From Candidatus Methylopumilus universalis (GTDB taxonomy: Bacteria > Pseudomonadota > Gammaproteobacteria > Burkholderiales > Methylophilaceae): a stretch of 64,000 nt of DNA. The stretch spans positions 558,001 through 622,000 of the forward strand of contig NZ_CP040968.1 in NCBI RefSeq assembly GCF_006365315.1, in the 5' to 3' direction. The notes under the pieces are model-generated. The model made no database searches. It saw only the letters and a program-made list of their open reading frames with translations, and was not told where the DNA came from. The position numbers were made by a program, and so were the translations under genes. Below, one piece after another: positions 24,060 to 26,939 of this stretch; position 1 is the stretch's first letter; every line of letters begins with the position of its first letter.

Positions 24060-25589
24060 ATGTGTGGAATCCTTGGAATAGTCGGTAAAAACCCGGTTAA
24101 TCAGCTACTTTACGATGGCTTGTTAGTTCTCCAGCATCGGGGTCAAGATGCCGCTGGTATTGTTACTTGCGACGGCAATACTTTCTTCATGCATAAAAAT
24201 AATGGTCTTGTGAAAGATGTGTTTCATACGCGCCATATGCGAAATCTTATTGGCAATGCAGGTATTGCTCACGTCCGCTACCCGACAGCAGGTTCATCTT
24301 CAGCTGCAGAGGCTCAACCATTTTATGTAAATTCGCCTTTTGGAATTGTCTTAGGCCATAACGGTAATTTAACTAATGCTGAAAAGCTTAAAGAAGATAT
24401 TTTTAGACAAGACCTTCGTCATATAAATACCACATCAGATTCAGAAGTTTTACTTAACGTGTTAGCGCACGAAATAGAAGAATCTGCAAAGAGTACCGTG
24501 CTTAATAGTGATGTTGTTTTTGATGCTGTCACTTCAGTTCATAAGCGATGCAAAGGCGCTTATGCTGTTGTTTCAATGATTGCCAATTTTGGCCTTCTTG
24601 CGTTTAGAGACCCCCACGGCATTCGCCCGCTTGTGATTGGTAAACACGAAGGTCCTCAAGGTGTTGAATATATGGTGGCATCTGAAAGTGTAGCCATTGA
24701 TGTACTAGGATTTAAGTTGGTAAGAGATGTAGAGCCTGGCGAAGCAGTCTTTATTGATATGAATGGTAATTTTTATTCTAAACAATGCGCTAAACCTAAT
24801 CATCATCCTTGTATATTTGAGTATGTCTATCTTGCAAGGCCTGACTCCGTGATCGATGGTATTTCTGTTTATCAAACACGACTTAATATGGGTAAGACAT
24901 TAGCGCAGAAAATTAAAAAAGCTTGGGCCCATCTCGATATTGATGTTGTGATTCCTATTCCTGATACGAGTAGGCCTAGCGCTTTACAACTCGCACTCGA
25001 ATTAGGTCTTGATTATCGCGAAGGTTTTATTAAAAATCGTTATATTGGCCGTACGTTTATCATGCCGGGTCAAGCATTAAGGAAAAAATCAGTACGACAA
25101 AAACTTAATCCGATTAAAATTGAATTTCAAGACAAGAATGTTTTACTCGTAGATGATTCGATTGTACGAGGCACAACATCAAAAGAAATTGTTCAAATGG
25201 CCAGAGAGGCGGGTGCTAAAAAAGTTTACCTAGTTTCAGCGGCGCCTCCTGTAAGATTTCCTAATGTTTATGGTATTGACATGCCTTCGCGCACTGAATT
25301 ACTAGCGCCTAATAAAACGGACGAAGAAATTCGAAAAGAAATTGGCGCAGACGAATTGATTTATCAAGATCTTGATGCGCTTATTGAAAATATTGCATCT
25401 ATTAATCCAAAACTTAAAAAATTTGATGCCTCTTGTTTTGATGGCAAATACATCACAGGTGACATTGATGAGTATTATTTAAAAAATATTGAAACACTTC
25501 GTGCTGACTCTAATATGTCTGACAAGCCTTCAAATGCCAGCACACAAATGGATTTAAATTTAAGTAAAAACGAAGAGGAAGCGGCTTAA
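24060..25589 (+). CDS. purF: Amidophosphoribosyltransferase
   Basis: First committed enzyme of purine synthesis: PRPP + glutamine to phosphoribosylamine. 509 residues. The N-terminal nucleophile Cys2 (MCGILGIVG) is exposed after Met removal; [11 protein letters not shown] and [12 protein letters not shown] belong to the glutaminase domain, and [17 protein letters not shown] is the PRPP loop of the transferase domain. No propeptide. It ends the long leu-trp-fol run; the next gap carries the metZ control region. Confidence 0.98.
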
Positions 25590-25602: not shown

Positions 25603-25630
25603 TTGACGTATTTTTTTTATCGTGCATAAT
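25603..25630 (+). promoter_or_regulatory. Sigma-70-type promoter of metZ
   Basis: TTGACG at 25603-25608, a 16-bp spacer with a T run, and CATAAT at 25625-25630. This is the best consensus promoter seen in the window. The expected start of transcription, about 25637, falls at the first bases of the SAM aptamer, so the whole leader is the regulator. Confidence 0.7.
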
Positions 25631-25634
25631 TTCA

Positions 25635-25704
25635 AGTGCGCTGATTTGAGTGATAAAGTTATTTCTCAGCTTGCGGGCGCGTTAAAAATACAGCTAAAGC
25701 GAGG
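25635..25704 (+). promoter_or_regulatory. SAM-II (or SAM-V)-like riboswitch aptamer upstream of metZ
   Basis: Pseudoknot SAM sensor. Stem P1 pairs 25635-25641 with 25677-25683 (core GCGC/GCGC plus G-U and A-U pairs). The P1 strand is followed by the conserved UGAUUU, and the 3' side has the A-rich linker and AGCUAAAG (25692-25699) then GAGG. These match the order of conserved blocks in the SAM-II structure as I remember it. The loop holds an extra hairpin (GAG...CTC with ATAA/TTAT inside, 25648-25667), longer than in the minimal aptamer. High SAM should shut off methionine synthesis. SAM-II and SAM-V share this core, so the class split is uncertain. Confidence 0.75.
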
Positions 25705-25709
25705 TCTGT

Positions 25710-25743
25710 CCCGTTTTAGCTTTTTGTGAAACGGGTTTTTTTA
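25710..25743 (+). terminator. Riboswitch expression platform: intrinsic terminator before metZ
   Basis: CCCGTTT (25710-25716) pairs with AAACGGG (25729-25735), followed by seven T residues. The aptamer's AGCTAAA (25692-25698) is an exact complement of TTTAGCT (25715-25721), which overlaps the terminator's left arm and loop. The two pairings exclude each other, so free AGCTAAA would act as antiterminator and SAM binding would release the terminator. Confidence 0.8.
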
Positions 25744-25766
25744 TGCCCAAAAAAAGGTAACAGATT

Positions 25767-26939
25767 ATGAATAACGATCCATGGAAATTTGACACACAAG
25801 CAATTCGAGCTGGCTCATTACAATCTGAGTTCGGTGAGAATTCTGAAGCTATCTTTTTAACTTCAAGCTATGTGTTTGATTCATCTGCGCAGGCTGCCGC
25901 AAGATTTGCAGGTAATGAGCCTGGCAATATCTATTCTCGTTTTACGAATCCTACAGTGACTATGTTTCAGGATCGCCTTGCAGCTTTAGAGGGCAGTGAG
26001 GCATGTGTCGCGACTTCAAGTGGTATGTCAGCTATTTTAGCAACGATTATGGGCCTATGTTCTGCTGGAGAACATATCGTGGCGTCTAGAAGCATTTTTG
26101 GTACAACCGTGCAACTCTTTAGCAATATTTTAAAGCGTTGGGGTTTAGAGGTTACTTTTGTATCACTCACTAATCTTAATGAGTGGGAAGATGCTATTCA
26201 AAAAAATACAAAACTTTTTTTTGTAGAGACTCCATCTAATCCTTTAACTGAAGTCGCTGATATCCAAGCACTTTCAAAAATTGCACATCAAAAAGATATT
26301 AAATTAATAGTAGATAATTGTTTTTGTTCGCCTGCACTTCAAAAGCCTTTGTTATTGGGTGCTGACATTATTATTCATTCTGCTACTAAGTATCTTGATG
26401 GACAGGGGCGTTGTTTAGGTGGTGCAGTGTTAGCAGATAAAAAAACGATAGAGCCGGTTTATCAATTCCTGAGGTCAGCAGGACCTACGATGAGCGCATT
26501 TAATGCCTGGGTCTTTTTAAAGGGTTTAGAAACACTTCCTATTCGAATGGATGCTCATTCTAAGAATGCACTTCATTTAGCAAGTTGGCTTGAGTCTCAA
26601 CCTCAGGTCGATCGTGTTTACTATCCTGGATTAGCCTCTCATCCGCAGCATAAACTCGCTTTAACACAGCAAAAAACGGGTGGAGCTATTGTATCTTTTG
26701 AGGTGAAAGGTGGCCAAAAAGAGGCATGGAGCTTAATTGATTCCACTCGATTGATCTCTATTACGGCTAATTTAGGTGATGTTAAATCTACGATTACACA
26801 TCCTTCTACGACGACTCATTCAAGAGTCAGCCCTGAAGAGCGTCAAAAAGCTGGTATCAAGGACAACCTTGTCAGAATCGCTGTAGGCCTTGAGGATATA
26901 GAAGACCTAAAAGCCGATTTGTCTAGTCTTTCGCGCTAA
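25767..26939 (+). CDS. metZ: O-succinylhomoserine sulfhydrylase
   Basis: PLP enzyme of the Cys/Met metabolism family making homocysteine directly from O-succinylhomoserine and sulfide. 390 residues. Motifs: SRFTNPTVTMFQDRLAALEG, ATSSGMSAILATIMG, and the PLP lysine in IHSATKYLDGQGRCLGGAV. WKFDTQAIRAGSLQSEFGEN at the start is typical of MetZ rather than MetB or MetY. It lies behind a SAM-responsive leader, fitting end-product control of methionine synthesis, and consumes sulfide made by the cys genes at 41-46 kb. Confidence 0.93.
   Translation: MNNDPWKFDTQAIRAGSLQSEFGENSEAIFLTSSYVFDSSAQAAARFAGNEPGNIYSRFTNPTVTMFQDRLAALEGSEACVATSSGMSAILATIMGLCSAGEHIVASRSIFGTTVQLFSNILKRWGLEVTFVSLTNLNEWEDAIQKNTKLFFVETPSNPLTEVADIQALSKIAHQKDIKLIVDNCFCSPALQKPLLLGADIIIHSATKYLDGQGRCLGGAVLADKKTIEPVYQFLRSAGPTMSAFNAWVFLKGLETLPIRMDAHSKNALHLASWLESQPQVDRVYYPGLASHPQHKLALTQQKTGGAIVSFEVKGGQKEAWSLIDSTRLISITANLGDVKSTITHPSTTTHSRVSPEERQKAGIKDNLVRIAVGLEDIEDLKADLSSLSR

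Follow-up and report, generated by a model that had tools for sequence, protein, structure and literature searches.

A leader upstream of metZ in Candidatus Methylopumilus universalis is very probably a SAM-II-type riboswitch of a betaproteobacterial subgroup

Introduction

In the window, the 64,000-nucleotide stretch of DNA analyzed here, a leader bounded by purF (24060-25589) and metZ (25767-26939) contains sequence blocks that recall SAM-II riboswitches. What is this element, and how might it act on metZ? An earlier interpretation made from the letters alone (the sequence-only reading) took it for a SAM-II-like riboswitch and considered that it might extend the range of the class or point to leader transfer. 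SAM-II elements in betaproteobacteria were already in print (Corbino 2005; Barrick & Breaker 2007; Meyer 2009), and the leader of betaproteobacterial metX and metZ was described as a novel element, "metXZ", with six conserved regions, a possible pseudoknot among them, together with a terminator and, speculatively, an antiterminator (Leyn 2014, PMC4239095). The idea of a terminator-antiterminator pair is thus theirs. That study lists metXZ in 35 genomes, among which three Methylophilales have it ahead of metZ, and places SAM_alpha (RF00521, the SAM-II family of Rfam) in Rhizobiales and Rhodobacterales only. A Burkholderia small RNA candidate adjoining purF, metZ and metX, Bp2_Cand287 (Rfam entry RF02424, Bp2_287), was suggested to play a cis role in methionine metabolism (Khoo 2012, PMC3521395).

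We argue that the window element very probably belongs to a betaproteobacterial subgroup of SAM-II-type riboswitches, with the predicted function of a SAM-triggered transcription OFF switch. What is new here is the proposed SAM-II identity of metXZ, the proposed role of a P2 pseudoknot strand as the antiterminator strand, and the placement of Bp2_287 on the opposite strand. Among open-licence texts, no paper was found joining metXZ or Bp2_287 to SAM-II, and no such link appears in the accessible portions of Leyn 2014 or of two papers listing Bp2_287 (PMC10987360, PMC6337395).

Organization of the leader

All features described below lie on the forward strand. The downstream gene encodes an O-succinylhomoserine sulfhydrylase (NCBIfam, 697 bits, cut-off 522), which bears out its earlier designation as metZ. 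Every block named in the sequence-only reading is present, in the order given there, within 25637-25704: GCGC (25638-25641), UGAUUU (25642-25647), a returning GCGC (25677-25680), an A-rich linker (25682-25692), AGCUAAAG (25692-25699) and GAGG (25701-25704). The proposed position of the element at a transcription start is also in keeping with the sequence. A sigma-70-like pair, TTGACG - 16 nt - CATAAT (25603-25630), recognized by consensus only (10 of 12 matches), ends ahead of P1, so that transcription would start at about P1; with three promoter-like sites found against 1.2 expected, this pair is weak when taken alone.

Helix P1 is formed by UGCGCU (25637-25642) and GGCGCG (25676-25681), and pseudoknot P2 by UCUCaGCUUGC (25664-25674) and GC(U)AA(A)GCGAGG, that is GCUAAAGCGAGG (25693-25704). 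These strands were delimited by alignment and covariation, leaving the outermost U25664-G25704 pair uncounted. GAUUUG (25643-25648) would provide a third strand, with SAM-contacting uridines expected at 25645-25647 by analogy with SAM-V and SAM-II structures, for which ligand-contact bases and a related binding core have been described (PMC6061858); U25695, within the P2 3' strand, is the expected adenine-binding base. The A-rich linker L3 (25682-25692) is apparent from sequence and alignment. The loop between P1 and P2 contains an internal L1 hairpin (UUGAG.GAUA / UAUU.CUCAG; 25646-25669). An intrinsic terminator follows the aptamer (stem 25710-25718 / 25727-25735, U7 at 25736-25742), and the metZ start codon lies 31 nt past its stem. 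This terminator falls inside the stretch singled out earlier (25635-25766), where it went unnamed.

Relationship to the SAM-II family

At curated thresholds, Rfam reports no family in the 64-kb window. RF00521 nonetheless aligns over its full length at 25628-25720 with 24.9 bits (E 0.0018 in a search of 601 bases against 4227 families). This falls short of the 36-bit gathering score, a limit set by curation and no structural trait. In the 1.28-Mb genome the window copy is the top RF00521 match, the runner-up scoring 17.7 bits. Thus, the covariance-model search proposed in the sequence-only reading did return a SAM riboswitch family and, together with the metZ annotation, supports a SAM-II-like element ahead of metZ in a Methylophilaceae-type genome. 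The SAM-V alternative fared less well: RF01826 is unlisted for the leader at E<=10. It was rejected, as was RF01726 (SAM-II long loops), which reached only 16.0 bits (E 3). A match to anti-hemB (19.1 bits against a cut-off of 49.5) spans the terminator and was set aside.

The relationship was also approached from the opposite side. Covariance model R1 was built from 19 aligned sequences of the window's own genus, family and order (alignment A1), with P1 as the sole paired helix and without sequences of other classes. It matched all 16 over-cut-off RF00521 loci of other classes that were submitted to it (15.5-40.5 bits; E 0.0026 to 1.6e-11), which are part of 30 loci fetched and presumably alphaproteobacterial. 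Conversely, of 200 genomes of the order, 36 carry an RF00521 match above that family's own cut-off, and 90 carry one at E<=0.01. Over-cut-off RF00521 matches and R1 matches fall at common places, for example in genomes G058, G040, G103 and G082; the G040 copy, scoring 45.2 bits with RF00521, is 98% identical to the window across a 40-nt core. When 20 R1 loci were scanned, two passed the RF00521 cut-off (L048, 45.2 bits; L084, 39.7 bits) and 18 fell below it.

What keeps the window copy at a low Rfam score is probably its long L1 hairpin, judging from the sequences compared. In the sample of 200, four genomes from other genera of the same family (G016, G024, G095 and G137), all with long loops, have no RF00521 match at E<=0.01, suggesting that the L1 insertion lowers the score. 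The sequence-only reading had remarked on the length of this hairpin, and fairly so. The hairpin is present in the window's minimum-energy fold, and the loops of 76 distinct long-loop sequences fold better than shuffled versions (mean z -1.75). The insert measures 11-34 nt and mostly starts with AG and ends with CU. Position-wise covariation lends the hairpin weak support, close to expectation: offsets 0-2 are paired in 69, 67 and 48 of the 76 sequences against 69.0, 63.6 and 46.4 expected, and the excess is modest at offsets 3 and 4 (43 and 51 against 36.1 and 42.3). In the window, the base of the hairpin (25665-25669 with 25646-25650) overlaps P2 and two of the GAUUUG uridines; hence the hairpin must open at least at its base in the bound state. 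The folding of the whole leader is not unusually stable (z -1.37).

Conservation and covariation

Helices P1 and P2 were assessed in alignment A3, made of 104 matches from 100 sources chosen among the loci collected; it leaves out phylum-level loci outside the class, contains redundant same-genus loci, and four of its rows are second matches in tandem loci. P1 and the outer part of P2 covary. Taken together, the two helices are paired in 93.4% of cells compared with 89.7% upon shuffling, and the covariation score is 0.133 compared with 0.070; neither value was reached in any of 500 shuffles, which ignore the relatedness of the sequences. Double-change cells number 48 against 14.8 in shuffles; when the partner is shifted by 1-3 columns, no more than 56.7% of cells are paired and the score does not exceed 0.048. 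The weakest of the measures is the count of further pair types (17 against 14.2; reached by 20 of 500 shuffles).

P1 is paired in 96.0% of cells and shows changes on both sides in four of its six pairs. Its outer pair is present in 79 of the 104 rows, where column composition predicts 54, and unpaired in 25; it occurs as UG, CG, UA, AU, GC and GU. P2 is paired in 91.7% of cells, with both-side changes in two of nine pairs; the four inner pairs are invariant and therefore carry no covariation information. P2 pair 50-91 is UA in 62 rows, AU in 12 and unformed in 21, and is, with the outer P1 pair, the most informative of the alignment; pair 49-92 is unformed in 34 rows.

The three U columns of GAUUUG hold U in 103, 104 and 104 of the 104 rows, and the uridines and adenines expected to hold the ligand, mapped from column to structure in this analysis, are present in 103 or 104. 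The GAUUUG / CUUGC / GCUAAA core is also found in the printed RF00521 loci, which were selected by regular expression (33 tried, four without a print). The exception at the bulged U is a copy in a genome of the same family (L031:675-757), which has GCAAAAG in place of GCUAAAG, altering the expected adenine-binding base; from its letters, this copy is decayed or altered.

Predicted switching mechanism

In the free minimum-energy fold of the window, 25692-25701 and 25703-25704 pair with 25710-25721, forming an antiterminator hairpin (25692-25721) whose 5' strand includes the P2 3' strand and which excludes P2 and the terminator alike. When 25693-25703 are barred from pairing, mimicking a SAM-stabilized P2, the terminator forms. 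These alternative pairings suggest the following scheme. Transcription would begin at about P1. At high SAM levels, the ligand would sit in the groove of the P2 pseudoknot and keep GCUAAAGCGAGG paired, allowing the terminator (25710-25735) to form and turning metZ off. At low SAM levels, the same strand would pair with the 5' arm of the terminator and RNA polymerase would continue into metZ, the choice between the two folds presumably being made co-transcriptionally. The inferred OFF direction at high SAM is the one predicted for Sinorhizobium meliloti metZ, with its SAM-induced terminator (PMC9373788).

A terminator follows the element in 94 of 100 loci. In the window and in L010, L013, L014, L017 and L020, the terminator finder had picked the antiterminator hairpin with a U5 run, which was replaced by the CCCG...CGGG hairpin. 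The finder returned none in six loci (L034, L081, L082, L084, L096 and L097), two of which (L034 and L097) show by eye a hairpin whose T run is less good. In 59 of the 94 loci (p<=0.05), the P2 strand paired better with the terminator 5' arm and loop than did shuffles preserving base composition, not dinucleotides; the medians were -10.2 kcal/mol against -4.5 for shuffles. No significant pairing was detected in the other 35. One locus, L089, retains this pairing with different letters (GCUAAACAG with CUGUUUAGC). The full-length free fold contains the antiterminator in only 21 of 94 loci and the terminator in 71; with the P2 strand blocked, the terminator forms in 93. The rarity of the antiterminator as the equilibrium fold implies that in most genomes the order of synthesis must matter, or that the antiterminator is weak.

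In three loci from a genus of the same family with 1.3-1.4-Mb genomes (L318, L319 and L320), the aptamer (30.8-34.9 bits) precedes a metZ-like ORF, identified by eye. No terminator is seen by eye in these loci, and the ATG lies 25 nt behind GCUAAA. From sequence, this looks like a change to translational control.

Distribution and downstream genes

By DNA search, the leader was recovered from 29 of 41 related genomes, namely 14 of 15 in the genus (the window's own included), nine of ten others in the family and six of 16 others in the order. At E<=0.01, R1 has matches in 300 of the 399 order genomes searched (134 of 164 genera) and in 127 of 397 genomes sampled across the phylum, both sets of counts including weak matches close to the threshold. 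In ten genomes of the phylum sample that lie outside the class, the match exceeds 60 bits. The distribution of the element within the order looks like long vertical presence and makes a recent horizontal transfer less likely. With betaproteobacterial SAM-II on record and the metXZ leader published in 2014, the suggestion of a range extension or a leader transfer was not sustained.

Secondary R1 matches were also encountered. A weak one in the window's own genome (G000:C1:993516-993574, minus strand; 20.9 bits, E about 1e-3) is probably due to chance. Four loci outside the class (L072:1642-1697, L077:1669-1724, L083:1621-1676 and L085:1626-1683) contain a second aptamer-like stretch (R1, 19.5-23.4 bits) reading GAUUUGAGGG ... 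CAGCUUGC ... GCUAAAGCGC, situated after a terminator-like hairpin recognized by eye.

Downstream genes were surveyed by taking the longest ORF starting within 700 nt, which yielded an ORF at 146 of 151 loci. This rule may miss the nearest gene; the MATE cluster, for instance, sits behind a small ORF. The ORFs fall into clusters of 75, 17, 13, 8, 6, 6, 5, 2 and 2, plus 12 singles. Cluster representatives identify a metZ-like PLP enzyme (75), metX (17), metK (13), a MetW-domain protein (8), metH (6), MATE (6) and a MetN-like protein (5; under the NCBIfam cut-off). Representatives of the two pair clusters and the singles L050, L074 and L147 gave no family match, a further single (L171) matched SsuA, and eight more were left out of the family scan. 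The methionine and SAM genes found in this way, beyond the window and from cluster representatives, agree with SAM feedback.

The element or a second form, R2, is found before metK in L052 (identified by HMM), L186 and L189 (clustering with L052) and L327 (N-terminus by eye); for metK in betaproteobacteria, Leyn 2014 knew of no methionine regulator (PMC4239095). R2 is a SAM-II-like aptamer, mostly GAUUUAA ... CAACUUGC ... GCUAAAGCG, located behind a type 1 aptamer and its terminator (L129:1690-1750, L170:1482-1542, L132:1506-1565, L167:472-529, L137:509-596, L147:1413-1496, L149:1444-1526 and L152:1408-1505). Rfam at E<=0.1 gave no match for the second aptamer in the eight loci scanned (L028 and all those just listed except L167). 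A model built from 12 second-aptamer sequences has matches at E<=1e-9 in 146 of 300 genomes of the order, some of them at type 1 places. In 11 of 12 loci (L322-L326 and L328-L333), the R2 aptamer is followed by a small ORF, some 95-115 codons long and starting with M[FY]DC, and in several loci a MATE-like ORF comes next (by eye; in L129 and L137 by Pfam/NCBIfam). For three of the M[FY]DC proteins, Pfam gave nothing at E<=0.1, and for two of these NCBIfam gave only chance-level matches.

The opposite strand was examined through RF02424. This family exceeds its cut-off in eight of 41 genomes of the family of G259, in none of 60 genomes sampled from the order (three matches at E<=1e-4) and in none of 30 genomes of the family of G031 (five matches). 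Of the 24 RF02424 loci fetched, 20 (L128-L130, L191, L192, L194, L195, L197 and L198-L209) have an R1 match within the RF02424 stretch but on its other strand, and these include all eight over the cut-off. R1 is without a match in the other four (L193, L196, L210 and L211), and same-strand matches number zero among the 24. The reading of the element as the Bp2_287 small RNA was rejected on these grounds of strand.

Discussion

The identification of the element as SAM-II may be questioned in several ways. It could belong to a separate RNA class, metXZ proper, sharing the SAM-II-like pseudoknot plan and binding another ligand such as SAH, methionine or homocysteine. Leyn 2014 presented metXZ as novel and confined SAM_alpha to Rhizobiales and Rhodobacterales (PMC4239095), and the window copy as well as 18 of the 20 scanned loci score under the RF00521 cut-off. 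We consider this very unlikely, given that R1 and RF00521 match each other's loci reciprocally, that GAUUUG, TTGC and GCUAAA are common to the printed RF00521 loci and A3, and that, in the order itself, 36 of 200 genomes contain a copy above the RF00521 cut-off. Even less credible is a ligand-free constitutive attenuator or leader-derived small RNA, acting solely through termination or in trans. The orientation of R1, opposite to RF02424 in 20 of 24 loci and never on the same strand, speaks against it, as do the terminator and promoter-like site, which suit the strand of metZ; in its favor, Bp2_Cand287 was among the RT-PCR-tested candidates called verified (PMC3521395), and SAM-II leaders of S. 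meliloti do give rise to small RNAs (PMC9373788).

A SAM-II aptamer might also control mainly translation or mRNA stability instead of termination. L318-L320, where no terminator is apparent by eye and the start codon comes 25 nt past GCUAAA, could be cited to this effect, as could the observation that equilibrium folding does not yield the antiterminator in the majority of loci. This reading is made very unlikely by the terminators of 94 of 100 loci and by the layout of the window, where the terminator ends in U7 and the start codon lies 31 nt past its stem. The preferred interpretation remains a SAM-II-type riboswitch of the betaproteobacterial subgroup, predicted to bind SAM and to terminate transcription.

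Taken jointly, the data make it fairly probable that betaproteobacteria hold at least two widespread SAM-II-type subclasses largely missed by Rfam. In the metXZ/metZ type, the ligand-binding P2 strand, GCUAAAGCG, would double as the antiterminator strand, and the element would have been filed under three unrelated headings: metXZ, the wrong-strand Bp2_287 and sub-threshold SAM_alpha. The R2 aptamer would act before metK; placed in tandem after a type 1 aptamer and terminator, it would also act before a small M[FY]DC protein with a MATE transporter next in line, composing a two-step switch. In the streamlined genus of the same family, the platform would have passed from termination to translation. 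On the SAM-II reading, the metXZ regulator, described in 2014 without a ligand, can be assigned SAM as its predicted ligand and a particular strand as its switch, which render it directly testable. One Rfam small RNA family would be the reverse strand of a predicted riboswitch. Surveys at the RF00521 cut-off would undercount betaproteobacterial SAM-II, as 36 of 200 genomes compare with 300 of 399 for R1 at the looser E<=0.01.

How does the element compare with known systems? RF02424 covers the same DNA in relatives, reported next to purF, metZ and metX (PMC3521395), and differs in being annotated as a small RNA gene on the opposite strand. SAM-V (RF01826) and the long-loop SAM-II family (RF01726) have a related binding core (PMC6061858), the models of both failing to recognize the leader at a meaningful E value (see above). 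The S. meliloti metZ leader shares the gene name and the predicted SAM-induced terminator (PMC9373788), but is an alphaproteobacterial SAM-II, likened here by description and not letter by letter. The correspondence with metXZ is closer: bacterial class, genes (metZ in the three Methylophilales), pseudoknot, terminator and suspected antiterminator are the same (PMC4239095). A pseudoknot and a terminator before metX or metZ in betaproteobacteria, as in the description of metXZ, are what is found here; the equation relies on that description and on gene context. The differences are that metXZ was published as novel, the mentions of SAM-II in the main text of Leyn 2014 drawing no link, and that their antiterminator is made from GC-rich regions 3 and 4, whereas the P2 3' strand is proposed here. 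Finally, P1, GAUUUG, CUUGC, the A-rich L3, GCUAAA, the H-type pseudoknot P2, a downstream terminator and methionine genes are all shared with RF00521. The window group departs from it in a GCGC P1, an outer P2 of UC(A)GC / GCGA with a bulged A, the L1 hairpin insertion of long-loop copies and, for the window copy, a score under the gathering threshold. The element is ordinary in kind and useful in detail.
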